Origin: Barnesiella intestinihominis YIT 11860
GTDB lineage: Bacteria > Bacteroidota > Bacteroidia > Bacteroidales > Barnesiellaceae
Length of the DNA: 64,000 nt
Reading direction: 5' to 3'
NCBI RefSeq assembly: GCF_000296465.1
Contig: NZ_JH815204.1
Location: 867,681 to 931,680, forward strand
Positions 20,143 to 52,345 of the stretch are shown here, piece after piece. Position numbers and translations under genes: made by a program. The notes beneath the pieces were generated by a model, which searched no databases, was not told the origin of the DNA, and was given only the letters and a program-made list of their open reading frames with translations. The number at the start of each line of letters is the position of its first letter. The stretch's first letter is position 1.

Positions 20143-20156
20143 AATACCGTATAAAT

Positions 20157-22016: not shown

Positions 22017-22017
22017 T

Positions 22018-23658: not shown

Positions 23659-23675
23659 ACGGCAACATTATTATA

Positions 23676-25889: not shown

Positions 25890-25931
25890 AATATAAGATA
25901 TCTAAAAAATTAGCAATTCAACCCGACAAGA

Positions 25932-28487: not shown

Positions 28488-28510
28488 CGTATAAAAATTA
28501 AATTATCTGT

Positions 28511-29368: not shown

Positions 29369-29398
29369 CTTATTTCGTGTTTATTAGTTATTATCTCT

Positions 29399-31129: not shown

Positions 31130-31146
31130 AATACTTAATTTTAATA

Positions 31147-33960
31147 TTAAAGTTGAACACTAAGTCCTAAACTCACCGTCCTCATTGCCGGATAACCGGT
31201 CATAGTCTCCGGGTCGGTAAATCCGTCCATATGGTCTAACGAGAACAAGTTAGTCCCATTCATGAAAACTCTTACTCCTTCAATTTTTATCTTTCGAGTC
31301 AAATTCTTCGGAATTGTATACCCTATCTCCAAAGAACGAAGTTTCAAAAAATCACCGTTCTTCTGCCAAAAAGAAGAAGACTGATAATTGTTCAGATTAT
31401 TGGAGGCCGAAAGCCGAGGATAAGTAGCTGTCGATTTTGTATCCTCTGTCCACCTATTCAGTGCAATAGAAGAAATCTGTCCATCATTCTGGAAGGCTTC
31501 GAAATATGAGCCGCTCCAATAAACCGACCGATTCAAAGCTCCTTGAAATAAAACATCGAAATCAAAACCCTTATATGTCAATCCCGCATGCAAACCCAAA
31601 GTACACTCAGGGACATCGGTATAACCTATGGCTTTAAAATCTTCCGAATCGATTCTTTTATCGTTATTTAAATCGGCATACTTCAAATCGCCCGGTTGAA
31701 CCGCTGCAAAAGTCTGCTTCGGCGAACTATCTATTTCGTTTTGGTCGTTAAAGAACCCCAGTGCTTCTAACAAAAACGGTTGATCAACCCTATGCCCGGT
31801 TCTATACTGATAAGCATAATTTTGAGGAGCCTCGGCATTATACAATATTTTATTTCTTGCAAACCAAGCACTTGCCTCCACAAACCAGGTCAAATCTTTG
31901 GTTTCTTTTCCGGTATAACGCACCACAGCCTCGAATCCTTGGTTACTCACCCGCCCTATATTCAATTCAGGACGCTTGAATCCTACAAAACTAGGAAGTA
32001 CATCATACGGCATCGTCAAAATATCATATCGCTTTTCTTTGAAATAATCAGCCGTAATGCTTAATCTATCGAAAAGAACGGCATCGATACCGATATTAAA
32101 TTTTCTGTCTTTTTCCCATGTAGCATCTGGATTGGCATAATAATTCTGAACGTAATAATACGATGCAGCATTCGACTGACCGAGATAATAGTTTCCACCT
32201 GTATAATACTGATTATACGGGAATCTTGTAGATCCGTTATCTTTATTCCCTGTGAGTCCATACGAAGCCCTCAATTTAAGGTAATCTACTATTTTGTTAC
32301 CTTTTAGGAACTCTTCATTAGAAATCACATACCCCAACGATCCGGCCGGAAAAAATCCAAAACGTTTTCCGCGTGCATAATTATCGTTGCCCGAGTAAGC
32401 AAAGGAAAACTCTGCAACGTACCGCTTATCGTAAGAATAAGTCAAGCGACCACCCGAAACGATATCCTTATACGGTAAATCGGTAGATGATACGTTATAT
32501 TCCTCATAACCACCCATCAACATAGCATCCACATGATGCTCTCCGAAAACCCTATCATAGTTCACAAAACCATGAACGACAAAATTCCGCCATTGATTAT
32601 ACGCACTTTCGCTTATAGACATAGAAGAGGTTTCACCAAACTGTTGTCCGGACATATCATATCGGGCATAATCCCTAGATGCTATGGTATACGATTTATA
32701 TATCGTATTGAAACCGACCGCTCCCGAAATACTCAACCCCGGGGTAATCATACCCAAATCGCCTATTAACTTAGCGGACAATTGTGCAGATCGCTTATTC
32801 GTAGAATAATATCCTGTTTCTGTAATCTCTGCCCACGGATTATAATAGGCAGAATTACCTCCTATTTGGCCATTTTCATGATAAATCGGAAACGCATTGG
32901 GCGGAAGTTTTGCAATTAAATTGAATACATTCGTACTATATTCACCGCTTACGTCATTCCTTACTCGCCCAGGATTCACACGATCCTCTACACTTCCCCC
33001 CAAAGTAAATTCCGAAGAGATGCGTTTCGACAATTTCACATCGACATTCGTCCTGAAATTATATCGCGTATACGAAAAGTCCTTCGTATAATCCGACTCT
33101 TTTTCTGTACCCTTATATAATCCCTTATTCGTCGCGACATTCAATAAAACGAAGTATCGTACGACATCGGAACCACCTCTTGCCGACAAATCATAGTCGG
33201 CAAGAGGCGAAAGAGTTCGAAGCAGTTGATTATACCAATTCACATTCGGATACCTATATTTATCCGTTCCATTCTTATAAGCCTCCAAATCGGCAGGAGA
33301 ATACACCTCAGAGCCCGGACCTAAATCGTTAACCATAGCTTCGTTGTATAACTGGGCATAGTCATACGATCCTAAAAAATCCGGTAACCTCATGGCCTGC
33401 TGCATACCGAAGCGAATGCCCAGTTTCAGTTCCAAAGGTGCATTCACACCTCTCTTTGTCTTTACAAGCAATACACCATTGGCAGCCTTATTCCCATATA
33501 TCGCCGCAGAGGCAGCATCCTTTAACAAATTAACCGACTCTATTTCCTGAGGCGTCAACTGTTGAAATAATTCCAACGTAGAAGGGAAACCGTCAATTAT
33601 AATAGTAACGTCCCGCCCTGTTCCAAACGTGCTTATACCGCGAGCATGCAACGTAGGGGCATCGTTCCCGGGCTCTCCACTCTGTTGACCCACTGTAAGT
33701 CCCGGAAGTCTCGCATATAAAGTATTTGCAACATTCGTGGTAAACGACTTCGACATTTCATCTCCCTTTACAGAAGATATCGCACCTGTCATTTCCCATT
33801 CTGCCCGCTCTCCATAAGCAATCGGAATCATTTTCTCAGAAAACGTCGAATCGGTATGAACCACCTGAGCAGATAAAAGCCCAGTAAACAACAAACCTTG
33901 AACCAGCAAAAATATTTTATGCTTCATGAGGCAATCTTTCTTTATCTTCATGTTGATCAT
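31147..33960 (-). CDS. Short SusC/RagA-type TonB-dependent outer-membrane transporter (pair 2)
   Basis: Predicted protein of 937 residues; the probable signal peptide begins at an inner Met (MKHKIFLLVQGLLFTGLLSAQ, ATG 33927), although ATG 33951 or 33960 is possible. The plug domain (ARLPGLTVGQQSGEPGNDAPTLHARG, IIIDGFPS, INLLKDAASAAIYG-like VNLLKDAASAAIYGNKAANGVLLVKTKRG) and a beta-barrel are present to the C-terminal VSLGLSVQL. Unlike its neighbour, it lacks both the STN and the carboxypeptidase-regulatory-like domain, and the usual DEVVVVGYG TonB-box region is reduced to KMIPIAYGERAEWEMTG. It should import oligosaccharides with its SusD partner, but its coupling to TonB may differ. It cannot itself signal through an STN domain. 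Confidence 0.92.
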   Translation of the reverse strand: MINMKIKKDCLMKHKIFLLVQGLLFTGLLSAQVVHTDSTFSEKMIPIAYGERAEWEMTGAISSVKGDEMSKSFTTNVANTLYARLPGLTVGQQSGEPGNDAPTLHARGISTFGTGRDVTIIIDGFPSTLELFQQLTPQEIESVNLLKDAASAAIYGNKAANGVLLVKTKRGVNAPLELKLGIRFGMQQAMRLPDFLGSYDYAQLYNEAMVNDLGPGSEVYSPADLEAYKNGTDKYRYPNVNWYNQLLRTLSPLADYDLSARGGSDVVRYFVLLNVATNKGLYKGTEKESDYTKDFSYTRYNFRTNVDVKLSKRISSEFTLGGSVEDRVNPGRVRNDVSGEYSTNVFNLIAKLPPNAFPIYHENGQIGGNSAYYNPWAEITETGYYSTNKRSAQLSAKLIGDLGMITPGLSISGAVGFNTIYKSYTIASRDYARYDMSGQQFGETSSMSISESAYNQWRNFVVHGFVNYDRVFGEHHVDAMLMGGYEEYNVSSTDLPYKDIVSGGRLTYSYDKRYVAEFSFAYSGNDNYARGKRFGFFPAGSLGYVISNEEFLKGNKIVDYLKLRASYGLTGNKDNGSTRFPYNQYYTGGNYYLGQSNAASYYYVQNYYANPDATWEKDRKFNIGIDAVLFDRLSITADYFKEKRYDILTMPYDVLPSFVGFKRPELNIGRVSNQGFEAVVRYTGKETKDLTWFVEASAWFARNKILYNAEAPQNYAYQYRTGHRVDQPFLLEALGFFNDQNEIDSSPKQTFAAVQPGDLKYADLNNDKRIDSEDFKAIGYTDVPECTLGLHAGLTYKGFDFDVLFQGALNRSVYWSGSYFEAFQNDGQISSIALNRWTEDTKSTATYPRLSASNNLNNYQSSSFWQKNGDFLKLRSLEIGYTIPKNLTRKIKIEGVRVFMNGTNLFSLDHMDGFTDPETMTGYPAMRTVSLGLSVQL

Positions 33961-33972: not shown

Positions 33973-35796
33973 TTAATAACCTGGATTCTGTATCAAATAT
34001 CCCTTATTAACCTCGTTCGTAGAAAACGGGTGCAAATACATTTTTTTCGTAAATGTACGGTTCTCATACAAATAGGGCGTATAGCGGAACTCTTGCGGAC
34101 TCGAATTAATCCAATAAATCTTAATGCCATACATAGCTCCACTCATCACTCCTTCTTGCTCGGCAATCATCCAACGACGCACATCCCAAAAACGATGGTT
34201 ATCGAACGCTAATTCAATAGCTCGTTCATTACGAACCAATTCCCTAAAATCGGAATAGATTCCACTACCCGACAAAATAGCCGGTTGTCCCGAACGCTCG
34301 CGAATAATATTTATAGCCTCTCTTGCCGAATATTTATAACCATGTTTATCGTCCGGTCCATAAGCCTCATTCATAGCCTCGGCAAAATTCAAATAAATTT
34401 CGTTCAATTGGAAAAGTGTAGAATTGGGAACAGGCTCTTGGTTATCGGGACGCATGATAGACGGAGAGACTAACTTATGCAACCAAAATCCTCCATAACA
34501 ATCCTTGATATGCTTGCCGGCCGCAACGCCCAGTTCTTCATTGGCTTCCCAAAGCTGAACCTCGGGCGTCTGTGAATTCCACCAAGATAAATTATATGCG
34601 ATAGTCTGTGCAAAACGTCTATCCAAATTTGCCAACTTCGCTTGTAAATCATCGCCACCGTTCCATTCGACCTTATTACCATCACGATCTTCATACTTAC
34701 GCACAAAGTTCAACAAAGGCGTCGTCCCGTTTGTACCCGAACTACCGGCAATAATCGAGCCCGGAATAATACCCGACCACGGACGATTCCAACAACCCAT
34801 ACCCTGAGCGGCCTTCTCGGCTAAAATAATCTCGGGATTATCATACACCTCCCAACTATATTGATAATTGGCATCCACTCCCTGATCGGTAATCAAATAA
34901 CAACCATTCGTTTCCGCCCAGCGAATGCAAGAATCGGCAACTGCGGCAGCACGCTCCCACCACACCATATTTTTAGGTTCGTTCAAACAAATGAGATTAT
35001 TATTCGTCCCAAAATCCATATAAGGCTCGTTGGTATTAAACAACGGACTAGCTGCATAAAGCAATACCTTAGACTTTAACGCCAACGCTACTCCCTTATG
35101 AACACGCCCCCTCAGATTCTGCAAAGCATTATCGAGCAAAGCCGGATAAGCCTCGTCAATATCCTGCAAGATGAAAAAAAGCATCTCCCTTAAACTGGCA
35201 CGAGGTATTTTCAAATTATCGTCCAACTGCAAGCGTTCCCGAATAATAGGCATCCCGCCATAACGCTTCATCATCTCAAAATAATTCAACGCTCTTATCA
35301 GCTTAGCCTCGGCTATCAACTGGTCTCTATATTCAGGAGTAATATCGGGGACATCATAAATCCTGTCCAAAAGAACCGTTATCTTCCTGATAGCTACAAA
35401 ACGATAATCAAATCGAGAATCATCGGTACGATTAGCCGAGATAGAACCCTCGTTCCACCAGTTCATGCGATACCAGTTGGCACACGTTTCGGCCTCATCG
35501 CAAGCTCCGGCGAAAATGTTCTCGTCCCTATTGGAATAAACATTCGAGTTTGCCGAAGCATACCCTAAATTAGAATGGATACCCATCTGATAAATACTCG
35601 TTAAGAATGTCTCCACTTGTGTTCTCGATGAAAATATAGTATCTTCTGTCACATCTCCTCCCGGCGGTTTCTCCAAATAGTTTCCCATCATATCTTCGCA
35701 CGATACGACAGCGACCGGCAACACCAGAACTAATAAGATTAGTAAGGGAGAAACAAGCTGTTTAAGCCTTTTCAAATTTATATTCTTTAAATACAT
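33973..35796 (-). CDS. SusD/RagB-family glycan-binding lipoprotein (pair 1)
   Basis: Predicted outer-membrane lipoprotein of 607 residues. ATG 35796 gives MYLKNINLKRLKQLVSPLLILLVLVLPVAVVSC with a lipidated Cys; the frame extends to a TTG at 35826 but without sense as a signal peptide. SusD markers are LIAEAKLIRALNYFEMMKRYGGMPIIRERL, KVLLYAASPLFN, LNEIYLNFAEAMNEAYGPDD and LVRNERAIELAFDNHRFWDVRRWM. It lies 30 bases after the large susC gene and 13 bases before the second susC. It should bind the same glycan class as its SusC partner at the cell surface. Confidence 0.94.
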   Translation of the reverse strand: MYLKNINLKRLKQLVSPLLILLVLVLPVAVVSCEDMMGNYLEKPPGGDVTEDTIFSSRTQVETFLTSIYQMGIHSNLGYASANSNVYSNRDENIFAGACDEAETCANWYRMNWWNEGSISANRTDDSRFDYRFVAIRKITVLLDRIYDVPDITPEYRDQLIAEAKLIRALNYFEMMKRYGGMPIIRERLQLDDNLKIPRASLREMLFFILQDIDEAYPALLDNALQNLRGRVHKGVALALKSKVLLYAASPLFNTNEPYMDFGTNNNLICLNEPKNMVWWERAAAVADSCIRWAETNGCYLITDQGVDANYQYSWEVYDNPEIILAEKAAQGMGCWNRPWSGIIPGSIIAGSSGTNGTTPLLNFVRKYEDRDGNKVEWNGGDDLQAKLANLDRRFAQTIAYNLSWWNSQTPEVQLWEANEELGVAAGKHIKDCYGGFWLHKLVSPSIMRPDNQEPVPNSTLFQLNEIYLNFAEAMNEAYGPDDKHGYKYSAREAINIIRERSGQPAILSGSGIYSDFRELVRNERAIELAFDNHRFWDVRRWMIAEQEGVMSGAMYGIKIYWINSSPQEFRYTPYLYENRTFTKKMYLHPFSTNEVNKGYLIQNPGY

Positions 35797-35826
35797 GGTA
35801 TAATATTTTAGGTCGTTACTATCCAA

Positions 35827-38800
35827 TTAAAAATTAACATTGATCCCGAAGTTGAATACCCGTGTAACAGGATAAGGTTCGCTATTCGTCACTCCGGCAT
35901 TGGCGACTTCGGGATCCTGTCCGGGTAACATATCGGTCCATGTCAATAAATTGCTTCCATTTACATAGATTCTAATAGAACCAATACCTGCTTTCTTCAA
36001 AGATTCTTGTCTGAATGTATAACCGACTTCTACGTTTTTCAAACGGAGGTATGAAGCATCTTCCAACCAATAAGTCGATGTCAGGTAATTATGTCCTACT
36101 CCATTCACACCATAGCGAGGATAAACGATTTTCTGGTTATTGACAAAACGCTCGTAACTCCAACTCTTCAACAAATCACGATTAGCTCCCGTATATTCGT
36201 AAAAGCCCCGCATAATACGACGAGAAGGCATATTGGACACGTGAGTCGCCCCCTGAAACAGCAATGAAATATCGAGATTTTTATAAGACCCTCCTAATGA
36301 AATTCCATACATGATTTCCGGAAAATTGGAATACCCGATAGGAACTTGGTCATCGTCATTAATTTTGCCGTCACCGTTAATATCCACATAACGAACATCT
36401 CCCGGCTGTATCTTATTATTATTGTTAGCCATCACATACTCGGGTCGTCCTGCGGCATTTATCTCTTCCCAAGAGTTGAAAATTCCATCGGCCACATAAC
36501 CAAAGAATTGCCCGTAACGTAATCCTGTCCGATAGAGATAATCTTCATTACGGATAACTTCGTCTTGTTCCAAAATCTTATTATGGGCATACGTAAAATT
36601 AGCTTTTACAAAATAGCTCCAATCACCGATACGATCGCCGACAGAAATTTCTCCGTCCCAACCAGAATTTCTCATGCGACCCATATTATAAGCCGGAAGA
36701 TTCGATGCCGAAATACCGATGATAGTAGGAACCGTATTACGGTTACAAAGGATATTATCCCGATACTCCATAAAGTAATCGAACGTTAAACCTATACGAT
36801 CTCCCCAAAATTTAACATCGGCCCCGACATTCCATTTGATTGCTTTCTCCCATGTCAAATCAGGATTACCGGCCTTACTCTCGTTAGACCCCACATATCC
36901 CACATATGACGAACCCACTTCTCCAAAATAATACGAATTACTACCCGTATAGGTATATACCGATGGCAAATATAAAAAGCGGTCCCCACCGATTTTATCG
37001 TTACCTACGGTTCCATACGACCCTCTTATTTTCAAGAATGACAAGACTTCATTTCGAGGGAAATAAGGCTCCTCGGTCAAAACCCACCCCAACGAATACG
37101 CAGGAAACCACCCGAAACGTTTGCCCGGGGCAAAATTCTCAGTACCGTTATATCCTACGTTTACTTCGGCCAAATAACGGTTGCCGTAATTGTACGTAAC
37201 CCGACCGACCAATCCTTGATATCCATTAGGAATATTATACTTTAATGTAGGATTATAATATTTCCCTTGATTGTACAAGACCAATCCCGTTACCGTATGC
37301 TCCCCGAACTTGCCAGTATATTCCGCTCCGATTTCCGAATAAATGCGTATATTCCTGCTATTTGTTCCTTGATAAGTCAATTTCCCGGGATCGGTAGACG
37401 GAACAAAAATCAACTCATCGCCGGCTCTTCGCAAGTCATAGGTTATTCCACGGTCATTATAGGTCTTCGTTTCTGTACTATAACTCTTGTAAGAAAGAGC
37501 TCCACGCAAAGAAAGTCCTTTCAATAAATAATCCATTTTATACGTGAACCGTCCCGATAAATTCAAATTATTTTCATACTTCGATTTCCAACCTCTCGTA
37601 TAAGGACTGGCAGGATTTCGCCCGCTACCGAATACATCGGTTATCGTCACAACCTTGTTGTCAATTACTCCCGGTGCAGCATTAGACGGTGTCGAATTCA
37701 ACGACTCCATAATTTGTCCTGTACTCCAATTAGGGTTCTGCAAATTTCCCATCTGGTTAGAAATATCTAAACTCAACAACAGATTTTTCGTAACATTTAT
37801 ATCGAAATTCGAACGCATATTATAGCGTCTGAATGCAATTTGATAGCTATACCCCGGGTCATATATACCGGTATCCAACATACCGTTCTGCGTAAACACA
37901 CCCAATGAAACAAAATATTTCACCCGCTCGGTTCCCCCGCTCACATTAAAGTTTGTCTGAGTCTGAGTCGAGAAATCCTTCAACATATAATCATACCAAT
38001 TGATATCTGGATAAAACAGAGGATCAGAACCGGTTCGATATGCTTCGATAGCTTCCTCCGAGTAACGTGGAATATACGATAACTGTGAATAATAATCGTA
38101 AGCCTGAGCCTCATTATAAGCCCTTGCATATTCATACGAATTCATCGGTTCGGGCAAAAACGGGAAATTCGTGATAGCGACATTTGTCGAAAAACTAATT
38201 TTCGGTTTTCCCAACTCACCACGCTTTGTCGTAATCAAAATAACACCATTCGCACCTCTCACACCATATACGGCAGTCGCCGAAGCATCTTTCAAAATAG
38301 ACAACGACTCCACTTCGTTCGGGTCTATATCGTTCAAGTTATTCACTTCGATACCATCTACCATTATCAAAGGATTCTGTGATTCCGCATCACTGGCGAA
38401 AGTACCGACACCGCGTATACGCAACGTAGACATGTCTTGCCCTGGTTCACCGCTTCGTTGCACACTCAACAATCCGGGAATCCTACCGCCGAGTGCATTG
38501 CTAATATTAGCTTGCGGCGATTGTAAAAGATCCTTTGTGGTTACCATAGAGATAGAACCGGTAACCGTTTCTTTTTTCTGTGAACTATAACCGACAACAA
38601 CGATGTCGTCCAACGTATTGGCAACCTCCTCCAAAACAAATTGGAACCGGGTTTGTGAACCGACCTTTACCTGCTGAGGATTATATCCTATATAAGAGGC
38701 TTCCAATACATCTCCGGGGGAAACTTCCAGCTTAAATGCCCCGTTTATATCGGCCATAGAACCAATCGTCGTCCCCAATACCCGAACACTGGCGCCAATC

Positions 38801-39249
38801 AACGGTTCGTTATTGGCATCGAAAACGGTTCCCGTAATCTGTATCTTATTTGACTTTACAGCCTGAGCCTTACTTTTCGGCGACGATTTCTCTACCAGAA
38901 ATAAACTCACTTGACGTTTATTCTTTATTTCATAAGAAATATTCGTTGTACTGAAAATCTGGTTCAAGACAGTAACAACCGGCGTATTATTGACTGTAAC
39001 ATTCACCCTTTTAGACAATTCGGAGTTCAAATTATCCGTATAGAAAAAAACATAATAATTGGTCGACTTCTCAATTTGAGACAAAACACTTTTAATAGGA
39101 ACATTTCTCAAATTGAGAGATACATTGGTTTGCTGGCCCCATGCATACGGGAACATACCCAGCAAAAAAAGTAATAGAATCGAACGTTTCAATTTATTAC
39201 AGAAATGCCCTCTCCCATACATTCCAAATAGATTTTTCCAAGGTAACAT
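35827..39249 (-). CDS. SusC/RagA-type TonB-dependent transporter with STN signalling domain (pair 1)
   Basis: Predicted protein of 1140 residues. The start is set at ATG 39249 (MLPWKNLFGMYG); the longer frame begins at a TTG. After the leader (LLLFLLGMFPYAWG) comes an STN domain (VSLNLRNVPIKSVLSQIEKSTNYYVFFYTDN), then a carboxypeptidase-regulatory-like domain (ITGTVFDANNEPLIGASVRVLGT), the TonB box DDIVVVGYSSQKKE, the plug (LSILKDASATAVYGVRGANGVILITTKRG) and the barrel. An STN domain passes a ligand signal to a FecR anti-sigma factor, and fecR lies just upstream. It is thus the expected sensor and transporter of the locus. Length is normal for STN-containing SusC proteins. Confidence 0.96.
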   Translation of the reverse strand: MLPWKNLFGMYGRGHFCNKLKRSILLLFLLGMFPYAWGQQTNVSLNLRNVPIKSVLSQIEKSTNYYVFFYTDNLNSELSKRVNVTVNNTPVVTVLNQIFSTTNISYEIKNKRQVSLFLVEKSSPKSKAQAVKSNKIQITGTVFDANNEPLIGASVRVLGTTIGSMADINGAFKLEVSPGDVLEASYIGYNPQQVKVGSQTRFQFVLEEVANTLDDIVVVGYSSQKKETVTGSISMVTTKDLLQSPQANISNALGGRIPGLLSVQRSGEPGQDMSTLRIRGVGTFASDAESQNPLIMVDGIEVNNLNDIDPNEVESLSILKDASATAVYGVRGANGVILITTKRGELGKPKISFSTNVAITNFPFLPEPMNSYEYARAYNEAQAYDYYSQLSYIPRYSEEAIEAYRTGSDPLFYPDINWYDYMLKDFSTQTQTNFNVSGGTERVKYFVSLGVFTQNGMLDTGIYDPGYSYQIAFRRYNMRSNFDINVTKNLLLSLDISNQMGNLQNPNWSTGQIMESLNSTPSNAAPGVIDNKVVTITDVFGSGRNPASPYTRGWKSKYENNLNLSGRFTYKMDYLLKGLSLRGALSYKSYSTETKTYNDRGITYDLRRAGDELIFVPSTDPGKLTYQGTNSRNIRIYSEIGAEYTGKFGEHTVTGLVLYNQGKYYNPTLKYNIPNGYQGLVGRVTYNYGNRYLAEVNVGYNGTENFAPGKRFGWFPAYSLGWVLTEEPYFPRNEVLSFLKIRGSYGTVGNDKIGGDRFLYLPSVYTYTGSNSYYFGEVGSSYVGYVGSNESKAGNPDLTWEKAIKWNVGADVKFWGDRIGLTFDYFMEYRDNILCNRNTVPTIIGISASNLPAYNMGRMRNSGWDGEISVGDRIGDWSYFVKANFTYAHNKILEQDEVIRNEDYLYRTGLRYGQFFGYVADGIFNSWEEINAAGRPEYVMANNNNKIQPGDVRYVDINGDGKINDDDQVPIGYSNFPEIMYGISLGGSYKNLDISLLFQGATHVSNMPSRRIMRGFYEYTGANRDLLKSWSYERFVNNQKIVYPRYGVNGVGHNYLTSTYWLEDASYLRLKNVEVGYTFRQESLKKAGIGSIRIYVNGSNLLTWTDMLPGQDPEVANAGVTNSEPYPVTRVFNFGINVNF

Positions 39250-39285
39250 AAGTTTTTCTGTATTAGTAGTTAACAAGTTTTATAA

Positions 39286-40506
39286 TTAACTTCTCTTCTT
39301 CAATAAAATAGTATTTCCGTTCATTTCATACGACATGGGAACCGTTTTAGAATCGGCCTTTTCCAATGAAATCGTACGGGAAATAGTTTCCAATACGTCT
39401 TTCGGATCATCGAACAAAACCAACTTTCCACTGCATTTCAAATCTTTAATATCCTTTTCGCAATCGATATAAAGGTCATAATGTCTGGAAATTTTCGCCA
39501 ATATCATCGACAACGGCTGGCTGCGGAATTGGAGCAATCCATCTTTCCAACTAATAAAATCATACGTATTCGCCGCAGTAATATCCATAGAGTTGCTCGC
39601 CAAAGTCAGCATATGGTCAGGTTGCAAAATTTTCTTTTTCGATTCATCATTCGATTGAACCTCGACCAATCCTTCAACCAAGACAACAGACTGAGCCAAC
39701 TCATCGTGATAAGCCATCACACTAAATCGAGTACCCAATGCCCTCACACTCATTTCCGAAGTTTTTACAAAAAACGGCCTTTCGGCATCTTTGGCAATCT
39801 CGATGTAAATTTCGCCATCGACATATACTTCCCGTTTATTCTTCTCAAAAGTTGTCGGGAAACGAAACGTCGAGCCCGAATTGACCCAAACCTTCGAACC
39901 GTCTTCCAATACCAAATGAGAAGCTCTGCGACCCTTAGGCACGATCAATTCATTATATTCGACCTTACTATCGTTTACATCTACTGCATATCGTTCGTCC
40001 TGCTGGTTTATTGACGAAATAGTCGCCTCGCCACCTCCATACAACACATCGTCCCCCTCTTCAAGAGGAATCGTCCTTTCCCCAGCAATGACCAATCGGG
40101 TATCTTTCTCAAAATTAGATCGGTTCTTCTCTATCGTCGCTACTTGATTATCGGAAGTAAAAGGGGCAAAAAAAGAATAAACACCTACCGAAAGTAAAGC
40201 GACGACACATGCCGCTGCAAAAATTTTATAAAAGCCCACATACAAACGATGCCTCCGTATCGATTTCACTTGATCGTTGACATGCTCCAAAAGTTCCAGC
40301 TTCTCTTGCTCGGAATAAGTTTCATCATCGAATGTCATAGACAAAAGAAGTTGTTTCGCCGCTTCAATTTCTTGTTTTTTCTCAGGATTCTCTAAAACAT
40401 AATTATCCCAAAATTCAACATCGTCGTCGGTCAAAAGCAAAACACTTCTTAAAAACGAATCATCTTTAAGAAAATCAAGAATATTATATTCTGCCCTTGT
40501 TTTCAT
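39286..40506 (-). CDS. FecR-family anti-sigma factor
   Basis: Predicted inner-membrane protein of 406 residues. The cytoplasmic N-terminus (about 1-83) contacts the sigma factor; a single membrane segment follows (FYKIFAAACVVALLSVGVYSF). The periplasmic FecR domain has VPKGRRASHLVLEDGSKVWVNSGSTFRFP, REVYVDGEIYIEIAKDAERPFFVKTSEMSVRALGTRFSVMAY and VVLVEGLVEVQ; the DUF4974-type C-terminus (LQFRSQPLSMILAKISRHYDLYIDC, LEKADSKTVPMSYEMNGNTILLKKR) should receive the STN domain of SusC. The gene lies between the sigma factor and susC, the standard order for trans-envelope control of Bacteroidales polysaccharide loci. A variant of the proposed ECF promoter lies 46 bases before its start. Confidence 0.95.
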   Translation of the reverse strand: MKTRAEYNILDFLKDDSFLRSVLLLTDDDVEFWDNYVLENPEKKQEIEAAKQLLLSMTFDDETYSEQEKLELLEHVNDQVKSIRRHRLYVGFYKIFAAACVVALLSVGVYSFFAPFTSDNQVATIEKNRSNFEKDTRLVIAGERTIPLEEGDDVLYGGGEATISSINQQDERYAVDVNDSKVEYNELIVPKGRRASHLVLEDGSKVWVNSGSTFRFPTTFEKNKREVYVDGEIYIEIAKDAERPFFVKTSEMSVRALGTRFSVMAYHDELAQSVVLVEGLVEVQSNDESKKKILQPDHMLTLASNSMDITAANTYDFISWKDGLLQFRSQPLSMILAKISRHYDLYIDCEKDIKDLKCSGKLVLFDDPKDVLETISRTISLEKADSKTVPMSYEMNGNTILLKKRS

Positions 40507-40551: not shown

Positions 40552-40578
40552 AGACGACAAAATCCATTTTTTGTCCCC
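40552..40578 (-). promoter_or_regulatory. Putative ECF-sigma promoter (variant) upstream of fecR
   Basis: On the minus strand GGGGACA-N13-GTCGTCT lies between the sigma gene stop and the fecR start. It has the same spacing as the three GGGTATA-N13-ATCGTCT elements at 44362, 45979 and 48652, with five of seven bases conserved in the upstream box and six of seven in the downstream box. It would let fecR and the sus genes be induced separately from the sigma gene. Confidence 0.5.
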
Positions 40579-40595
40579 TCTTTTTCCAATTTTCT

Positions 40596-41156
40596 TTACC
40601 ATAAACAGATTATTATAAAAAGAAAAGCCACTTTCAACTTTCGCATTTTACCAATTGCTCTCGACACGGCTTTTCTTGAAGACTGTATGGTCATGTGCAT
40701 AAGAGAGGCGATCTCTTCATACTCCAACTCATGAATGAATCGCAGATATATAATCTCCCGTTGTCTACCGGTAAGAGAACTGAGTAATTTATTCAATTTT
40801 CCTTCTATTTCTTTCTTATCCTCCTCGGCTATCAACTCATTCAATATATTCCATTTTATAGTGAATTTATATTGATAATCATCTATACTACAAGTATCTA
40901 CCGATACTTTCAACATATCTAATAAATTATTCTTCAAAGACCTGAATAAATAATATTTCAAGTTCCTCACTTCGCTAAGGCTCCTCCGATTAAGATATAG
41001 TTTAACAAAGACATCTTGAATGGCATCTTTCAATACTTCTTTTTCAAATCCCAAACTTCTGCCATATTGCAAAAGAAGATCGACATACTTATTATAAATA
41101 AAAGTGAATGCCGCATCATCTCCATCGACAAATCTTTGAAAAACGACCTCATCCAT
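40596..41156 (-). CDS. ECF-type RNA polymerase sigma-70 factor (FecI-like)
   Basis: Predicted protein of 186 residues. Sigma region 2 covers about residues 10-85 (AAFTFIYNKYVDLLLQYGRSLGFEKEVLKDAIQDVFVKLYLNR, NLKYYLFRSLKNNLLDML) and region 4 about 125-178 (LSSLTGRQREIIYLRFIHELEYEEIASLMHMTIQSSRKAVSRAIGKMRK, with the helix-turn-helix). Regions 1 and 3 are absent, as in ECF factors. Paired with the downstream fecR and an STN-type susC, it should redirect RNA polymerase when the glycan signal arrives. The terminator upstream (41214-41245) separates it from the beta-helix gene. The C-terminus ends in a hydrophobic AFLFIIICLW tail, common in such Bacteroidales factors. Confidence 0.95.
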   Translation of the reverse strand: MDEVVFQRFVDGDDAAFTFIYNKYVDLLLQYGRSLGFEKEVLKDAIQDVFVKLYLNRRSLSEVRNLKYYLFRSLKNNLLDMLKVSVDTCSIDDYQYKFTIKWNILNELIAEEDKKEIEGKLNKLLSSLTGRQREIIYLRFIHELEYEEIASLMHMTIQSSRKAVSRAIGKMRKLKVAFLFIIICLW

Positions 41157-41259: not shown

Positions 41260-42705
41260 CTATTTATATACAAATACCATCTTCGAGACTTCATATCTCC
41301 GGGAGGCATATATCTTCTTTATCAAATAAATTCCTGTGGATTGAGGTTTTTCTAACCGAAGGCCCGACAAGGTAAAATATTGAATTTCTATTACAGGCTC
41401 ATCAGACTCGATAAAACTCGATTCTACGGAACTCGGAAGCCCGTCATATTCATAAGCGCCCATATCCACTGTTCCATTAACAACCCGCTCTTTTCCGGCT
41501 AAATCTTTATCATAATCGCCAATAGCCTCGTTATTTCCCGCATTTATCGCCGGACTCGAAGATTGAAGCATATAAGTTCCATCGACAAACTGAGGTTCGG
41601 CATTGAGATTGCCTACACCGCCCTCGGATTCAGGCCATATCGTATATGTAACTTCCGCCGTCGATTCGGGTCCCAGAAAAACGTTAGATCCGGCTGGTGT
41701 CGATTCAGACCGAGCGACATTATCGACAACGATACAATTCACAACCTCCGAACTGCCTTTATTTCCAAACCCTATACCACCGCCGCGGCCACTCGTCGCA
41801 TCGTTTCCTACGACCGTACAATTTATTACATGAGCCACAATCTCTTCCCCAGCCGGTTCGGTTACCATGCTACAATCTATTCCGCCTCCATAATTGGCAT
41901 TATTGGCCGTCCCGCCAATTTTATTGCCCTCGACCAAACAGTTCACGACATAGCCCGTTTTAATCGAAACACCACCTCCATTATTACCTCCTGTCGATGT
42001 ATTGTTCGATTCGTCTGCGACACAATGATTATTTCGTATAATGGAATTCAATAAATACCCACCATCTAAACAGACTCCGCCTCCGACACCCGGTTTCTTT
42101 CCATCGGCTGCTATGGCTATATTATTCTCAACGATACAATTCTTTACGATTCCGCGAGCATACACGCCTCCGCCCACACCTTTAATGGAGCCATCGGTTT
42201 TTGATCCATAATTATCGTGGACGATACAATATTCTATCATTCCATCGGGGTGGTCGATATAAACACCACCGGCACGACCTGCGGCTCCCGCAGTAGAATT
42301 ATAAGCATCCCCACCCGATATATCGAACCCTACAAAGTAAGACGCCGTCTTAAAATACAATACCCGGCGACCACTGCCTTTCAAAAAAGTCTCAATATTG
42401 TCCAACTGATAAGAAACAGGTTTTTCACTCTCTGTACCCTCACAATTTCCATACACCTTCACATCGGCTCTATTACAAGTAAAACTGGCCCCCTCTGGAG
42501 CTACGTATGTTCCTTTCTTTACAAAGATTTCGTCTCCCTCCGACAATTTGGTCGACGTCAATATTGCATTCAACGAAGTAGAGGTTTCCCAACTCAATCC
42601 GTCACTGTCTTCACTACCGTCTGGGGTAACAAAATATTTTACAGCATATGCGCTTTGAAATGAAAATACTGTAAAAACTAAAAAGCTAAGTAGATTTGTT
42701 TTCAT
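41260..42705 (-). CDS. Secreted right-handed beta-helix protein (copy 1)
   Basis: Predicted protein of 481 residues with a signal peptide (MKTNLLSFLVFTVFSFQSAYA). It opens with KYFVTPDGSEDSDGLSWETSTSLNAIL and GDEIFVKKGTYV, the usual cap of pectate-lyase-like or choice-of-anchor-Q beta-helix proteins, followed by helix turns rich in GGGVYxxG and NCIVENNIA (about 110-370). The tail (IQYFTLSGLRLEKPQSTGIYLIKK, EVSKMVFVYK) is a sorting-like C-terminus shared with copies 2 and 3. Related folds include polysaccharide lyases, depolymerases and adhesins; I see no decisive catalytic motif. It is the most diverged of the three paralogues and keeps an ATCGTCT box upstream, but not the matching GGGTATA box. 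Confidence 0.8.
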   Translation of the reverse strand: MKTNLLSFLVFTVFSFQSAYAVKYFVTPDGSEDSDGLSWETSTSLNAILTSTKLSEGDEIFVKKGTYVAPEGASFTCNRADVKVYGNCEGTESEKPVSYQLDNIETFLKGSGRRVLYFKTASYFVGFDISGGDAYNSTAGAAGRAGGVYIDHPDGMIEYCIVHDNYGSKTDGSIKGVGGGVYARGIVKNCIVENNIAIAADGKKPGVGGGVCLDGGYLLNSIIRNNHCVADESNNTSTGGNNGGGVSIKTGYVVNCLVEGNKIGGTANNANYGGGIDCSMVTEPAGEEIVAHVINCTVVGNDATSGRGGGIGFGNKGSSEVVNCIVVDNVARSESTPAGSNVFLGPESTAEVTYTIWPESEGGVGNLNAEPQFVDGTYMLQSSSPAINAGNNEAIGDYDKDLAGKERVVNGTVDMGAYEYDGLPSSVESSFIESDEPVIEIQYFTLSGLRLEKPQSTGIYLIKKIYASRRYEVSKMVFVYK

Positions 42706-42811: not shown

Positions 42812-44321
42812 TTATTTAATCGTGATGAACACCTTCTCGGTAATTATTTGCTTCGTATCGAAGGTCTTCTTAACGATATAAAGTCCTGAAACACTGGGAT
42901 AAGTAACCTCTACACCCTGCAACGTGTAATACTGAGTACGTACCACTTCTCCCTCTTGAATTTCAACATCATCTATGGCACTACCGTCCGTTACCTCATA
43001 AGCACCTAAATCGACCGACGCACCGAATATACGGGCATTACCAGCCAAATCGGTATCATATCCTTCGATAGCAGGATCATCACCGGCATCGATACAAGGG
43101 CTACCTTCTGCCAAACGATAATTTCCTCCTGCTACATCGACAAATTTTGGATCGGAAGTAATTGCGCTGGCACTGACCGTTTTTTCAGGTACACAAATGG
43201 CTCCGATAGTCACTCTTTCCGGTAATTTACCATCTGTTTGAGGGTTACCGAAACGAATATTGGCATTACCTGTACCATAATCGTCTTCACGACATGTATT
43301 GTTCCATGCGATACAGTTGGCAACAGTAGCAGTCATACCGTCGGCATTTGTCGTCTGAAATCCGATACCGCCACCCAATCCTTGAACATGGTTCTTCGCA
43401 ACGGTACAGTTAATCACATAAGCATCTTTTTCAGTACAACAGACGCCTCCACCTACCGATTGATTATTCAGCGACCCATTCACCGAATTCCCGACAACAA
43501 GGCTATTAATTAATTTACCCGACTTGATGGCGATACCGCCTCCTTGACTTTGGAAAGAATCCCCATCGTCGGTTGGAGTCGTACTGTTATTACGAATGAT
43601 ACAATTCAATACAATGGCATTATCGGGATTACACCCATTTCCCTCGGTTGCATCCAAGCAAATACCGCCTCCGATACCCGTAGACCAAGTTTTCGACGTA
43701 TCTTCCCACGGAGCAGTAGTCGCAATGTTGTTTTCAATAATACAATTAATTTTCCAACCTACCATTCAAGACATAAAGGCCTCCGCCAACACCTTTTAGA
43801 GCTTTCCCATTGGAACCTAAAATATTTTTAGAGCCATCGACACCTATATTATCATGAATATTGCAATACTTCAAAGTTGCCCCTCCATCATTAATATAGA
43901 CACCACCGCCACGACCGACTCCTGTGGTCTCCGTCGATGCATCTCCACCAGATATATCCAGTCCATAAATTTCCGATGCCTTTCCGTCCAAATAAAGTAC
44001 CCGTTTTCCTCCGGGACCCTTCAAAAAAGTTTCGAGCCCTTCGGCTGTCGTATACGTAGGCGGTTCGGTTTCCGTGCCGACACAATTCCCATAAACTTTG
44101 GCAGCAGCCCTCAACTTAAAACTACCCGTATACGTCCCCTTAGCGACAAAAACTTCGTCACCGGCAGCGGCCCAACTAAGAGCATCTTCCAAACTGGCAG
44201 CACTACTCCACGATGTTCCATCGCCCGAACCGGATTCTGTCACATAAATAACATCGGCATTCATTGTCGAAAAACCTCCGGCCAGCAATAACGCTCCCAC
44301 TAGTAAAAATTTTTTCTCCAT
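42812..44321 (-). pseudogene. Secreted right-handed beta-helix protein (copy 2), frameshifted
   Basis: The gene is split into two overlapping frames: 44321-43746 (191 codons) encodes the signal peptide and first helix turns, ending NGRLEN, and 43765-42812 carries on with INCIIENNIATTAPW through to the C-terminal sorting-like tail. Intact copy 3 reads NGRLENCIVENNIATTDPW across the same place. The break is a tandem AATT duplication at 43744-43751, which adds four bases and makes a TAA stop. Removing four bases restores a 501-residue protein, against 496 in copy 3. The rest shows no other damage, so the break is recent, reversible, or a sequencing error. The upstream promoter element is intact. 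Confidence 0.85.
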
Positions 44322-44361: not shown

Positions 44362-44388
44362 AGACGATGGGTATAAAATTTTATACCC
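44362..44388 (-). promoter_or_regulatory. Putative ECF-sigma promoter of beta-helix copy 2
   Basis: On the minus strand GGGTATA-N13-ATCGTCT, 41 bases before ATG 44321. CGTC-containing -10 boxes about 16 bases after a -35 box are typical of ECF sigma factors. The spacer here also makes the site part of a perfect palindrome (44366-44391). Confidence 0.65.
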
Positions 44389-44391
44389 ATC
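44366..44391. repeat. Perfect 26-base palindrome overlapping the promoter
   Basis: The arms GATGGGTATAAAA and TTTTATACCCATC are complementary without a loop. It lies 45 bases after the stop of copy 3 and covers the -35 box of copy 2. It has no T run on the minus side, so it is a poor terminator. It may serve as a regulator site or RNA-processing hairpin. Confidence 0.75.
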
Positions 44392-44452
44392 ATTCTCAAA
44401 CTATTTTCTAAGTTTTTTATTTATTCACCATACTATTTCGAAAGGCTCGAAG

Positions 44453-45943
44453 TCATTTGACCGAAATAAAGTTTTTTTCAACAACTACTTTCTTGGTATC
44501 ATACGTCTTCTTGACAATATAGAGTCCCGATACAGACGGGGAAGTCACTTCGATTCCCTGCATCGTGTAATACTGAACACGAACGATTTCACCGCCATTG
44601 GTTTCGGCGGTTTCTATGGCACTGCCGTCATTAACTTCATACGGTCCTAAATCAACAGCTGCTCCAAAAATACGGGCATTACCGTCCAAATCGGTATCAT
44701 ACCCTTCGATAGCGGGATCATCGCCGGCATCGATACAGGGGCTACCCTCAGCTAAACGGAAATTACCGTTCGCTGCATCAACAAACATAGGATCGGAGGT
44801 AATTGCACTGGCACTTACTGTATTCTCTGGAACACATACCACATTGATGGTTACTCGGTTGGGAAGTTCTCCGTCGGTTTGAGCGTTTCCGTAACGAATA
44901 TTGGCATTACCTGTACCATAATCGTCATCTCGACAAGTGTTACCCCATGCGATACAGTTTGATACGACAGCCCTCATTCCATCTGCATTTTGAGACTGGA
45001 ATCCGAAACCGCCACCCAATCCTTTTACATGATTGTCATAGGCTGTACAATTAATTATATAAGCCTCCTTTTCGGTAGTACACACACCACCGCCGACATT
45101 TTGGTTATTATTCGATCCATTCACCCTATTCCCTACGATAAGACTATTAATCAAATACCCCGACTTAATGGCAATACCACCCCCTTGATGATAATAAGAA
45201 CTTTCGTCATCATCTGGAGTTGTATAATTATTCCGTATTATACAATTAACGACTACGGCATCTCCCGGATCGCCAGAAGATTCCAAGCAAACACCACCGC
45301 CAACACCCATTGACCATACGGAATTATCTTCTTTCAGCCACGGATCTGTCGTCGCGATGTTATTCTCAACGATACAGTTTTCCAACCGACCGTTCCACAC
45401 ATAAGCACCACCGCCAACACCTCTCTGTGGAATACGATTTCCCTCCAACAAACGTTTAGTCCCGTCGATAGCTTTATTATCGTGTATGCGACAATACTTG
45501 GCCACACCGCCCCCGCTATTGATATAAAGTCCGCCGCCACGAGCTACACCGGTAGTCTCTTCCGAAGCGTCCCCGCCAGATATATCAAAGCCATAAATCG
45601 CTGCCCCTCCGTCCAAAAGGACGACACGTTTACCATCGCCTTTCAAAAAAGTTTCAAGACCTTCGGCCGAAGTATATGTAGGCGGTTCGGTTTCAGTCCC
45701 CTCACAGTTACCATATACGGTTGCTGCCACTTTCAACGCAAAACTACCGGTATAAGTACCTTTTGCCACATAAATCTCATCTCCTTTCGCAGCCCATGAA
45801 AGAGCATCCGCCAAAGGAGCGGCACTATTCCACGACATACCGTCACCCACGCCGTTTTCGGTCACATAAATAACTTCGGCATTCATTGTTGACAAACCTC
45901 CGATCAACATCAATACACCCGCAAGTAAAAAAAGCCTTTTCAT
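44453..45943 (-). CDS. Secreted right-handed beta-helix protein (copy 3)
   Basis: Predicted protein of 496 residues with a signal peptide (MKRLFLLAGVLMLIGGLSTMNA). The cap VIYVTENGVGDGMSWNSAAPLADALSWAAKGDEIYVAKGTYTGSF is followed by beta-helix turns (FDISGGDASEETTG, GVGGGAYVWNGRLENCIVENNIA, GIAIKSGYLINSLIVGN, GVCTTEKEAYIINCTAYDNHVKGLGGGFGF). Choice-of-anchor-Q-like residues GSPCIDAGDDPAIEGYDTDLDGNARIFGAAVDLGPYEV precede the sorting-like tail (VQYYTMQGIEVTSPSVSGLYIVKK). It is the intact sister of frameshifted copy 2, with near-identical stretches. Function as adhesin, glycan binder or depolymerase is open. A consensus ECF-type promoter lies 36 bases before the start. Confidence 0.82.
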   Translation of the reverse strand: MKRLFLLAGVLMLIGGLSTMNAEVIYVTENGVGDGMSWNSAAPLADALSWAAKGDEIYVAKGTYTGSFALKVAATVYGNCEGTETEPPTYTSAEGLETFLKGDGKRVVLLDGGAAIYGFDISGGDASEETTGVARGGGLYINSGGGVAKYCRIHDNKAIDGTKRLLEGNRIPQRGVGGGAYVWNGRLENCIVENNIATTDPWLKEDNSVWSMGVGGGVCLESSGDPGDAVVVNCIIRNNYTTPDDDESSYYHQGGGIAIKSGYLINSLIVGNRVNGSNNNQNVGGGVCTTEKEAYIINCTAYDNHVKGLGGGFGFQSQNADGMRAVVSNCIAWGNTCRDDDYGTGNANIRYGNAQTDGELPNRVTINVVCVPENTVSASAITSDPMFVDAANGNFRLAEGSPCIDAGDDPAIEGYDTDLDGNARIFGAAVDLGPYEVNDGSAIETAETNGGEIVRVQYYTMQGIEVTSPSVSGLYIVKKTYDTKKVVVEKNFISVK

Positions 45944-45978
45944 GTCACTAAAATTTAAGATTAATAATTATGTTGTAA

Positions 45979-46005
45979 AGACGATATATTCGCAATTTTA
46001 TACCC
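45979..46005 (-). promoter_or_regulatory. Putative ECF-sigma promoter of beta-helix copy 3
   Basis: GGGTATA-N13-ATCGTCT on the minus strand, 36 bases before ATG 45943 and 24 bases after the stop of the GH31 gene. The boxes and spacing are the same as at 44362 and 48652. Confidence 0.7.
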
Positions 46006-46028
46006 ACTTCTCCCTATTAAAGTATTAC

Positions 46029-48614
46029 TCATTTGGCAAAAGGACTTACCAAATCATCTTTTAACGTGATTTCCATAGCTTCTTGAAAATGGGTCTTGAA
46101 ATAATTTATATAATGACAGAAATTGTCAGGGTCATACGAAACCTTCAAATTCGTTTCGGAACAGAAACCGGTAACTTCGGGCACGACATAATTACCGGCA
46201 TATTTAAATTTTCGATTGGCGATAGCTCGATGCAAAGTTTTCAATTGTTTAATCATTCCATCGTTTACATCAACAACATTCGCTTTATCAAACTCAACCA
46301 CAATTTCGTACGACTTATTACAATCGGCATTCGATATAGGAATCGAAACCATGAACTCTTTACCGCAATATGACCATTCACTGGAATTGGGCAACACCGT
46401 ATAATTTACCTTCATGCCATTTAAGCTAACCGATCGAGGCATTTCGGCTCCATACAACCGGACGAGATAATCTTTCGAATGGTTCATTCCTCGATAATGA
46501 CCCTCTCTCGGAGCAATCTTAATCCGTTGAATACGATTTTCCAATTGCGACGTTACCCGTGTTGTAGCATACTCCGCAGCATATCTCTGATCATTACCTG
46601 CATCTTCATAAATAGAAAACTCACCCGCCGCACCCGGGAAAATACCGATAATTTGTTTCTTCGGATTATCGTCCAAACTATTCACCTCTTTTCCATACAT
46701 GGGAATTACAGCACCGGCTTTAACATAAATAGGATATTCTTCGATAGAAAATTGTCGGATAAGTTCCTGTCCGCCGTTCAATAACGTACCCGTATGCCAT
46801 TCATACCAGTCGTTACCGGCCGGAAGCCAAACCTTCACATCAGATACCCCATTCTCCATCGGAGCCCCGATTGGAGCTACCAAAATATTATCCCCGAACA
46901 TGTACTGGCGAGAATAAGTATATGCCCGCTCGTCTTCGGGATAATCATAATACATCGGGCGGCACAGCGAAACTCCTGTTTCATAAGTCTCCCTTGCCAT
47001 CGTATAGATATAAGGGACTAATTGATAACGCAATCTTACAGCGTTATACAATGCGTCGAAATATTCGTCGCGGTATCTCCATATCTCTTTTACCAACGAT
47101 GGATCCTTATTTGAGTGCGTTCTCAAAATCGGGCTCAAAGCGCCATATTGTACCCAACGGACATACATCTCAGGATCAAATTGATAAATATTATCGTCTT
47201 CGATGAACTTATGCCCTCCTATATCGTGACTCCAATATCCATAAAGAACATTCGAAGCCGTATTGGTAAAATAGGGCTGATATTCGAGCGTATTCCACGT
47301 AATATAAGCATCTCCCGAAAAACCTATTTGATAACGATGATTTCCCAAGCCTCCCCAACGGTGATAAATCAATGGACGCTTATCGGTATTGCGTTCCATA
47401 TCTTCAAAGAAAGTATAATTGAGCCACCAAGTGTTATTCAGTTTCTCTATATCCTTATCGAAAACCCATTGCTGCCAATCGAGCCACCAAAAATCCACAC
47501 CTTGCTGTTCAATAGGATGCAACACGACATCGAACAACGTACTCATAAACTTCTTATTAGAGCCTTGCCACGGAATATTTTCATGAGTAGATATATCGAA
47601 ATTCATACGTTTCGCAAAATCTTTGTATTGGCTTTCAAAGGGAGCGATACCCGATGCCGGATGCAAATTCAAGGTCGTTTTCAGATGCTTCGACTTGGCC
47701 CAGTCAAAAAATTGATCGGGATCGGGAAACAAACGCTTCTCCCATGTATAACCGGTCCAATGTTTACGTTGTCCCCATTTGTCCGGTTTGGCGAATAAAC
47801 TATCGGTCTCATGCCAATCCATATCGACAACCAACACATCTAACGGAATATTGAATTTCTCGAATTGCGAAACCACATCTCTCATCTCATTGTCGGAATA
47901 TGCCCAATAACGCGACCACCAATACCCGAATACGAAACGAGGAGGCAGTGGTACTTTTCCGGCAAAAAGAGTAAAATCTTTGAGGGCAGCTTTATAATCC
48001 GAACCATAAGCCATAAAATACCAATCTTGTACCGTTCTGTTCTCCCGCTCTTTTACCCACGAAAAATCGCTATTATCGAACAACAAACCGGACGAATCGT
48101 TGATAAGAGTCCAACCGTCACGAGACAAAATACCGTCCTCCAACTGTAACTCGTGCCTCGGTTCGTTCCTCTTAATAAAGGTCGTACCGTCCATACGATC
48201 CAATGTGCGGGCAGTCCCTTTCAAATTCTGCTTTTGAGTAACACTCGGATTCCACGTAAAGGCTCTTTTTTTGTTCAGATATTTTATCTCTAAATTTTCT
48301 TTTGAAAATTTCCCTGTATTCAATTTATATGTCAGTTCCAATTCGTCCGTTCGAATCGTCAATTTACCTCCCCTTATAATTTTCTTAAACTCAGGGACCG
48401 GCAAATTCCGATTAATCACAATAAACGAACGCTCATCGGTGAACCTATGCAAAGAATCCCACTCCATACGGATAACACGCGGTGTCAAAACGGTAAATCG
48501 CACATCACCTTCCTCGACTACGGCTGCCGGATTAGCAACAGCATCGTTACCTGAACTATAAGCGACTAAGGGAAATAAAATCACGAAAAAGAAAAACAAA
48601 ACATTTTTTTTCAT
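46029..48614 (-). CDS. Secreted GH31 alpha-glycosidase
   Basis: Predicted protein of 861 residues with a signal peptide (MKKNVLFFFFVILFPLVAYS). The start is ATG 48614; the longer frame begins at a TTG. The N-terminal beta-sandwich precedes a TIM barrel with FVFGYWWSRYWAYSDNEM, PLDVLVVDMDWHETD, the likely nucleophile Asp379 in VDFWWLDWQQW and the acid/base Asp435 in GFSGDAYITWNTLEYQPYF. A DUF5110-like region follows (FPGAAGEFSIYEDAGNDQRY). GH31 includes alpha-glucosidases, alpha-xylosidases and others; the WLDW variant of the nucleophile motif does not identify the substrate for me. Its promoter element, shared with the beta-helix genes, suggests control by the neighbouring ECF sigma factor. 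Confidence 0.92.
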   Translation of the reverse strand: MKKNVLFFFFVILFPLVAYSSGNDAVANPAAVVEEGDVRFTVLTPRVIRMEWDSLHRFTDERSFIVINRNLPVPEFKKIIRGGKLTIRTDELELTYKLNTGKFSKENLEIKYLNKKRAFTWNPSVTQKQNLKGTARTLDRMDGTTFIKRNEPRHELQLEDGILSRDGWTLINDSSGLLFDNSDFSWVKERENRTVQDWYFMAYGSDYKAALKDFTLFAGKVPLPPRFVFGYWWSRYWAYSDNEMRDVVSQFEKFNIPLDVLVVDMDWHETDSLFAKPDKWGQRKHWTGYTWEKRLFPDPDQFFDWAKSKHLKTTLNLHPASGIAPFESQYKDFAKRMNFDISTHENIPWQGSNKKFMSTLFDVVLHPIEQQGVDFWWLDWQQWVFDKDIEKLNNTWWLNYTFFEDMERNTDKRPLIYHRWGGLGNHRYQIGFSGDAYITWNTLEYQPYFTNTASNVLYGYWSHDIGGHKFIEDDNIYQFDPEMYVRWVQYGALSPILRTHSNKDPSLVKEIWRYRDEYFDALYNAVRLRYQLVPYIYTMARETYETGVSLCRPMYYDYPEDERAYTYSRQYMFGDNILVAPIGAPMENGVSDVKVWLPAGNDWYEWHTGTLLNGGQELIRQFSIEEYPIYVKAGAVIPMYGKEVNSLDDNPKKQIIGIFPGAAGEFSIYEDAGNDQRYAAEYATTRVTSQLENRIQRIKIAPREGHYRGMNHSKDYLVRLYGAEMPRSVSLNGMKVNYTVLPNSSEWSYCGKEFMVSIPISNADCNKSYEIVVEFDKANVVDVNDGMIKQLKTLHRAIANRKFKYAGNYVVPEVTGFCSETNLKVSYDPDNFCHYINYFKTHFQEAMEITLKDDLVSPFAK

Positions 48615-48651
48615 GGATATCAATTTAAGCTATAACAGTTTTTATGAGTTA

Positions 48652-48678
48652 AGACGATAAAACCAGAAAAATATACCC
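48652..48678 (-). promoter_or_regulatory. Putative ECF-sigma promoter of the GH31 gene
   Basis: GGGTATA-N13-ATCGTCT on the minus strand, 38 bases before ATG 48614. The spacer sequence differs from the other sites, while both boxes are identical, which argues for selection rather than recent duplication. Confidence 0.7.
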
Positions 48679-52327: not shown

Positions 52328-52345
52328 ATAAATATCGATTAAAGA

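Follow-up and report, generated by a model that had tools for sequence, protein, structure and literature searches.

Cell-surface signalling of the FecI/FecR/FecA type, known from Escherichia coli among other bacteria and reviewed in PMC9249621, shares with the Barnesiella locus studied here an ECF sigma factor, an anti-sigma factor with a FecR domain, a TonB-dependent receptor with a signalling domain and, in our case as a predicted feature, a transport operon as target. In Bacteroides, the BT1877/BT1876 pair of PUL24 is an ECF sigma/anti-sigma pair that controls a PUL (PMC11501099), and in the established model (PMC3878776 and PMC11501099), substrate passing through SusC signals via the FecR-like anti-sigma factor and the sigma factor is released. 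These PULs resemble the Barnesiella locus in holding sigma, anti-sigma, susC, susD and enzyme genes together, with a SusC signal that is relayed, here by prediction, via the anti-sigma factor. The kind of system (ECF/FecR/SusC) is therefore already known.

There are 50 ECF sigma factors in Bacteroides thetaiotaomicron, nearly half of them in PULs, and one, SigW-1 (BT1817), acts on genes of PUL59 at a distance (PMC12596196), much as the Barnesiella sigma factor would act on PUL genes from afar. In Flavobacterium psychrophilum, a CGT core in the -10 region of the SM6 promoters, also present in the Barnesiella sites, has been attributed to an ECF sigma factor (PMC9723704). Gut Bacteroidales can hold dozens of ECF sigma factors whose promoters are mostly unknown, and PMC3878776 regards ECF promoters as hard to predict when start-site data are lacking.

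Locus organization and candidate promoter sites

The window, i.e. the whole 64,000-nucleotide stretch of the Barnesiella intestinihominis YIT 11860 genome analysed here, carries, in the order of minus-strand transcription, genes for a GH31 enzyme, beta-helix copies 3, 2 and 1, an ECF sigma factor, FecR, an STN-bearing SusC and SusD (Table 1). Nine Barnesiella genomes, including this one, were compared, and a sigma orthologue was found in three of them: our own, G002 (86% identity) and G008 (90%), with the same order of sigma, FecR, STN-SusC and SusD genes in the latter two.

Table 1. Features of the sigma locus and of its candidate distal target (window coordinates unless a contig is given)
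Feature	Coordinates	Strand	Description
Genes after susD	19558..33960	-	closely spaced; likely single operon
SusD-like lipoprotein	33973..35826	-	
SusC-like transporter	35827..39276	-	STN signalling domain; PF07660, PF07715
FecR-like anti-sigma factor	39286..40506	-	PF04773 and PF16344 (C-terminal FecR domain)
Promoter site 4 (candidate)	40552..40578	-	GGGGACA-N13-GTCGTCT; 45 bases 5' of fecR, between sigma and fecR
ECF sigma factor	40596..41156	-	186 aa; regions 2 and 4
Beta-helix copy 1	41260..42705	-	without site
Beta-helix copy 2	42812..44321	-	frameshifted; ORFs 43746-44321 and 42812-43765
Promoter site 1 (candidate)	44362..44388	-	GGGTATA-N13-ATCGTCT; 40 bases 5' of beta-helix copy 2
Beta-helix copy 3	44453..45943	-	secreted, 496 aa; choice-of-anchor Q family (NCBIfam NF041518)
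Promoter site 2 (candidate)	45979..46005	-	GGGTATA-N13-ATCGTCT; 35 bases 5' of beta-helix copy 3
GH31 enzyme	46029..48614	-	Pfam; nearest solved structures annotated alpha-xylosidase (7wj9)
Promoter site 3 (candidate)	48652..48678	-	GGGTATA-N13-ATCGTCT; 37 bases 5' of GH31 start codon (48614)
Fifth site (candidate)	G000:C1:692941-692967		GGGTAAA-N13-ATCGTCT; outside window, intergenic, 5' of secreted GH5/GH39-like enzyme gene

The original prediction had recognized a sigma factor and its FecR partner at 39286-41156, with which the Pfam domains agree. The sigma protein matches PF04542 and PF08281/PF04545 over its 186 residues, has no region 3 match, and scores above the cut-off of TIGR02937 (sigma70-ECF), which places it in the ECF sigma-70 family; with the nearest NCBIfam model, TIGR02985 (Sig70_bacteroi1), it reaches 85.7 bits, below the membership cut-off of 126.4. 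The adjacent sigma factor, FecR-domain anti-sigma factor, STN-bearing SusC and SusD together have the make-up of an ECF/FecR/STN-SusC trans-envelope signalling system. The genes that follow susD encode a second SusC/SusD pair, a BT_3987-N/PKD surface protein and an LRR protein with a T9SS tail, then a GH92 enzyme, an unknown protein, an FAD oxidoreductase and, at the end of the run, a short GFO/IDH-like protein; most of this order is also found in G008. Because the gaps from fecR to position 19558 are all shorter than 45 bases, a single operon read from site 4 is likely, and, judging from the sequence, site 4 is likely to drive fecR-susC-susD together with the genes downstream.

Three minus-strand genes had been predicted to share identical pairs of 7-base boxes separated by 13 bases, and the three pairs were indeed found (sites 1 to 3). 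The distances of 36-41 bases from box to start codon given at that time are close to those obtained when counting from the end of the -10 box, namely 40, 35 and 37. The spacers differ between the sites, as had been said, yet both beta-helix spacers begin with AAATT. What the original prediction had overlooked is site 4, in the gap between sigma and fecR, which has 3 mismatches to GGGTATA-N13-ATCGTCT and differs from the other three sites at these three box positions. The sigma gene is not preceded by a site of this kind, and beta-helix copy 1 has none in any of the three sigma-bearing Barnesiella species. Two boxes at fixed spacing, a -10 box of the CGTC type, a suitable distance to the gene and specificity in the whole genome characterize the sites as putative ECF-type promoters. 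Site 1 is in addition overlapped by a 26-base perfect palindrome (GATGGGTATAAAATTTTATACCCATC, 44366-44391), of which the G002 version has one central mismatch; the palindrome creates a -35-like box on the opposite strand as well.

Specificity of the motif

A search of the whole genome, as had been proposed, detected GGGTATA-N13-ATCGTCT as an exact match only 3 times in 3,441,698 bases, always at the locus, within 4.3 kb and on the same strand. The count of two-mismatch matches leads to a chance expectation of about 0.034 exact matches (P ~6e-6 for at least three), and the one-mismatch count gives P ~2.6e-4 for at least three (expectation range 0.03-0.12), both P values leaving out the clustering of the three sites within 4.3 kb on one strand. 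Random scatter of the motif over the genome, the outcome that was to speak against the prediction, was not observed, exact matches being confined to the locus. The proposed search with one or two mismatches in the same genome was productive in one case, the distal glycosidase site described below; the other matches retrieved lie mostly inside ORFs, and none is convincing. The wider pattern GGGKANA-N13-NYCGTCT yielded 6 matches in this genome, of which five are the sites of the proposed regulon and one lies inside an ORF. Across the nine Barnesiella genomes, GGGKATA-N13-RTCGTCT gave 9 matches, each of them at the locus in one of the three sigma-bearing genomes, and no match in the six without the sigma gene. 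Elsewhere among 393 Bacteroidales genomes, the exact consensus occurs outside Barnesiella as scattered single matches, with two in G213, on different contigs.

Conservation across Barnesiella

When the five sites (four at the locus and the distal one) were traced in G002 and G008, four were found to be kept in both genomes and the fifth in one, site 1 being kept in G002 and lost in G008. The orthologues of site 2 read GGGTATA..GTCGTCT and those of site 4 GGGGATA..GTCGTCT in both genomes, whereas site 3 is GGGTATA..ATCGTCT in G002 vs GGGTATG..GTCGTCT in G008. The locus sites of the three species, 11 in all, follow the consensus GGG(T/G)A(T/C)(A/G)-N13-(A/G)TCGTCT, and the gap between the boxes is exactly 13 in every one of them. 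Between different genes, their boxes are 90% alike vs 33% for the spacers. Between species, the spacers of the GH31 and copy 3 sites are 41-46% alike and their boxes 90-95%, with better kept spacers at the fecR and copy 2 sites (77% and 92%). Motif and sigma gene occur together, with the motif in 3/3 genomes that have the sigma gene vs 0/6 that lack it, a small test because only three Barnesiella genomes have this sigma factor.

A distal glycosidase gene as candidate target

The fifth site has a single mismatch and is, among the one-mismatch matches of this genome that were retrieved, the one that is intergenic with a gene close behind. The gene has two in-frame ATG codons, of which the one located 37 bases past the box is the likelier start; the protein read from it has 427 residues and a secreted-like N-terminus. 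It shows weak GH5 similarity in Pfam, and its best relative in the PDB is the GH39 enzyme PslG. All three sigma-bearing Barnesiella genomes have the gene, and the six others lack it. Its site is kept in all three with the 13-base gap (GGGTAAA..ATCGTCT, GGGTAGA..TCCGTCT and GGGTAGA..TTCGTCT), while spacer and flanks diverge.

GH31, beta-helix genes and their neighbourhood

The beta-helix proteins belong to the choice-of-anchor Q family, are essentially confined to the locus in this genome, and have secreted-like N-termini. No sequence relatives of the beta-helix protein were found in the PDB. A structure model predicts a parallel beta-helix, mostly with good confidence for residues 24-335 (mean pLDDT over the full length only 62.6), and its fold matches, of low TM-score, are of the pectate-lyase, pectin-methylesterase and phage-tailspike types; the modelled folds would fit either glycan binding or glycan cleavage. 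Copy 2 reads as two ORFs because of a 4-base insertion at 43740-43766 (AATTAATTG), where copy 3 and the relatives are in frame. The gene is intact in G002 and G008, and its break may represent a real pseudogene, a strain variant or an assembly error. Copy 1 could possibly be read through from copy 2; the stretch separating the two (42706-42811) contains an inverted repeat that resembles a hairpin and has a T-run behind it.

A sulfatase gene is divergent from GH31. In G002 (L053:3543-5099) and also in G008, an extra beta-helix gene, absent from the window, is located between GH31 and copy 3. This gene lacks a site; it is probably transcribed after GH31 and, in its G002 copy, ends in a DUF6383 tail. 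A further minus-strand cluster of the window (50396-63717), comprising GH78, GH130, two GH5-type, GH2, apiosidase-like, SASA esterase and MFS genes, is without the promoter motif and is probably a separate glycan locus.

Sigma relatedness and gap boxes in other Bacteroidales

Outside Barnesiella, homologues of the sigma factor with 31-51% identity were found in 24 of the 393 Bacteroidales genomes searched, and a search in the rest of the class, with a sample of 395 genomes and E <= 1e-33, added no new homologues. At 4/5 loci with at least 40% sigma identity, the coding strand of the sigma-to-fecR gap contains the -10 box RTCGTCT, in contrast to 0/25 gaps of homologues below 40% (expected 0.09; P ~2e-6), and each of the four has a -35-like box at exactly 13 bases (GGGAACA, GGGAACG, GTCTACA and GTCCACG). 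A later sample, comprising 22 gaps of further sigma homologues from the family of G113 fetched after this first count, contained RTCGTCT in 9 gaps vs 0.38 expected, with P ~3e-10, a value that overstates independence because the loci of this sample are mutually related. Most of the nine have a -35-like box of the same type at exactly 13 bases, which is GGGGACA in three. The other 13 gaps are without the exact -10 box; several of them are nearly gapless, and three show GGGAACA or GGGGACA plus a near variant of the -10 box. At two relatives more distant than G002 and G008 (L148 and L154), the boxes are identical to those of site 4. More distant homologues have other box pairs, which differ by sigma clade; in one such clade, the gaps at L098, L105 and L110 contain GATTACA-N13-(G/T)TTGTAT, which, on the basis of these three gaps, suggests a second box code.

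A Mantel-type correlation between gap-box similarity and sigma identity was also calculated (r 0.28, reached in 0/5000 permutations) but is not relied on: the spacing control gave r 0.18-0.33 at all spacings from 3 to 24 with no peak at 13, so that this test alone reflects mainly relatedness. It counts as weak support and was superseded by directly counting near and far loci and by the later sample. Around the sigma homologues of G113, G172, G357 and G342, only the single site in the sigma-fecR gap was found, and the extra targets therefore look like a later growth in Barnesiella, to which a multi-promoter regulon appears to be particular among the genomes examined. At the tandem position G000:C1:811361 and 812519 of our own genome (L040 and L042), two FecR-domain genes follow one putative sigma gene, an unusual arrangement.

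Proposed regulon and alternative explanations

Taken together, the sequence data are best explained if the FecI-like ECF sigma factor (40596-41156) has GGG(T/G)A(T/C)A-N13-(A/G)TCGTCT as its -35/-10 promoter and the five operons as its regulon, a reading to which we assign a probability of about 0.86. The ECF-type promoter of the original prediction is supported by specificity in the genome, footprints across species, co-occurrence with the sigma gene and co-variation of box and sigma factor. The regulon envisaged there is supported for the beta-helix and GH31 sites and is probably too small, as fecR-susCD and an unlinked secreted glycosidase would have to be added. By analogy with known ECF/FecR/SusC systems, the STN-type SusC would sense a glycan, its uptake would be signalled via FecR, and the sigma factor, thus freed, would read the sites and fire five promoters. 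The targets would be fecR-susCD with the genes behind it, forming a loop by which importer and brake would both increase; GH31; beta-helix copy 3; beta-helix copy 2 and perhaps, by read-through, copy 1; and the unlinked secreted GH5/GH39-like enzyme. The three deviating box positions of the fecR site, the loss of site 1 in G008, the broken copy 2 of the window and the lack of a site at copy 1 count against the regulon reading, as do the 13 gaps of the later sample without the exact -10 box.

The sites could be ECF promoters that are read by one or several others of the roughly dozen FecR-linked ECF sigma factors of the genome, which contains eleven FecR stretches besides the one at the locus; ECF specificities may overlap, as for the Flavobacterium SM6 promoters (PMC9723704). 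We regard this as unlikely, given that the motif occurs only in congeners with this very sigma factor, that a site lies in the gap between this sigma gene and its own fecR, with related boxes in the same gap of relatives, and that the motif was not found in the gaps of ten paralogous ECF/FecR loci of the genome. Even less probable is that the boxes are no promoter and instead are bound by a DNA-binding regulator, be it SusR-like, of the HTCS type or another. The palindrome that overlaps site 1, also seen with a mismatch in G002, would suit such a regulator, but the remaining sites are non-palindromic, and all consist of two unlike boxes whose orientation is fixed and which lie 35-45 bases upstream of the start codon, whereas PMC3878776 describes SusR and HTCS sites as spaced direct repeats; no such regulator was found among the window genes examined. 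Simple inheritance of the boxes through duplication of the beta-helix gene, to which the ~70% identity of copies 2 and 3 and some common 5'-UTR sequence would lend themselves, is highly improbable, as the unrelated GH31, fecR and distal glycosidase genes have the same boxes, which stay while spacers and flanks diverge.

The promoter of this sigma factor appears sufficiently defined for its targets to be listed genome-wide and in three species, providing a complete, testable target set for a regulator of a type that usually has no known targets, and including a distal enzyme that linking by gene neighbourhood could not have reached. The site 5' of fecR-susC is conserved, and related boxes at the same place in relatives point to a broader rule, which we consider slightly better than an even bet: FecI-like PUL sigma factors of Bacteroidales would have a promoter code that can be read in their sigma-to-fecR gap, its -10 and -35 boxes always standing 13 bases apart and co-evolving with the sigma factor, so that the targets of each sigma factor, unlinked genes such as those of secreted glycosidases included, could be read from sequence; the Barnesiella regulon would have expanded from a single autoregulatory site to five promoters, including those of secreted beta-helix proteins. 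The same reading, which uses the gap before fecR and boxes that track sigma relatedness, is directly testable and could serve for other factors of this kind.

Comparison with known systems

No cognate promoter for a PUL ECF/FecR pair was found in the open-access literature, although a group-level motif may exist in the 2021 ECF reclassification. Likewise, the link between beta-helix proteins and ECF control, said to be undescribed in the original prediction, was not found in the open-access literature on PULs; it offers a first handle on the purpose of these secreted proteins. Unlike in FecI/FecR/FecA, a SusC-like glycan importer is the receptor in Barnesiella, fecR is part of the operon predicted to be induced, and the proposed targets extend to beta-helix proteins and glycosidases. 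For the ECF-controlled PULs of Bacteroides, the accessible portions of the published accounts give no cognate -35/-10 boxes, whereas motif, footprint and full target list can be proposed for Barnesiella. The motif reported for SigW-1 did not reach significance and is similar to a TGTT-type -10 (PMC12596196), from which the Barnesiella boxes, seen across species, differ. The SM6 promoters precede other genes, including T9SS and envelope genes, and their assignment to a sigma factor is tentative. With respect to the open-access literature, the novelty in Barnesiella consists of the cognate promoter, of beta-helix proteins and an unlinked enzyme as proposed targets, and of a rule by which promoters of this kind may be read.
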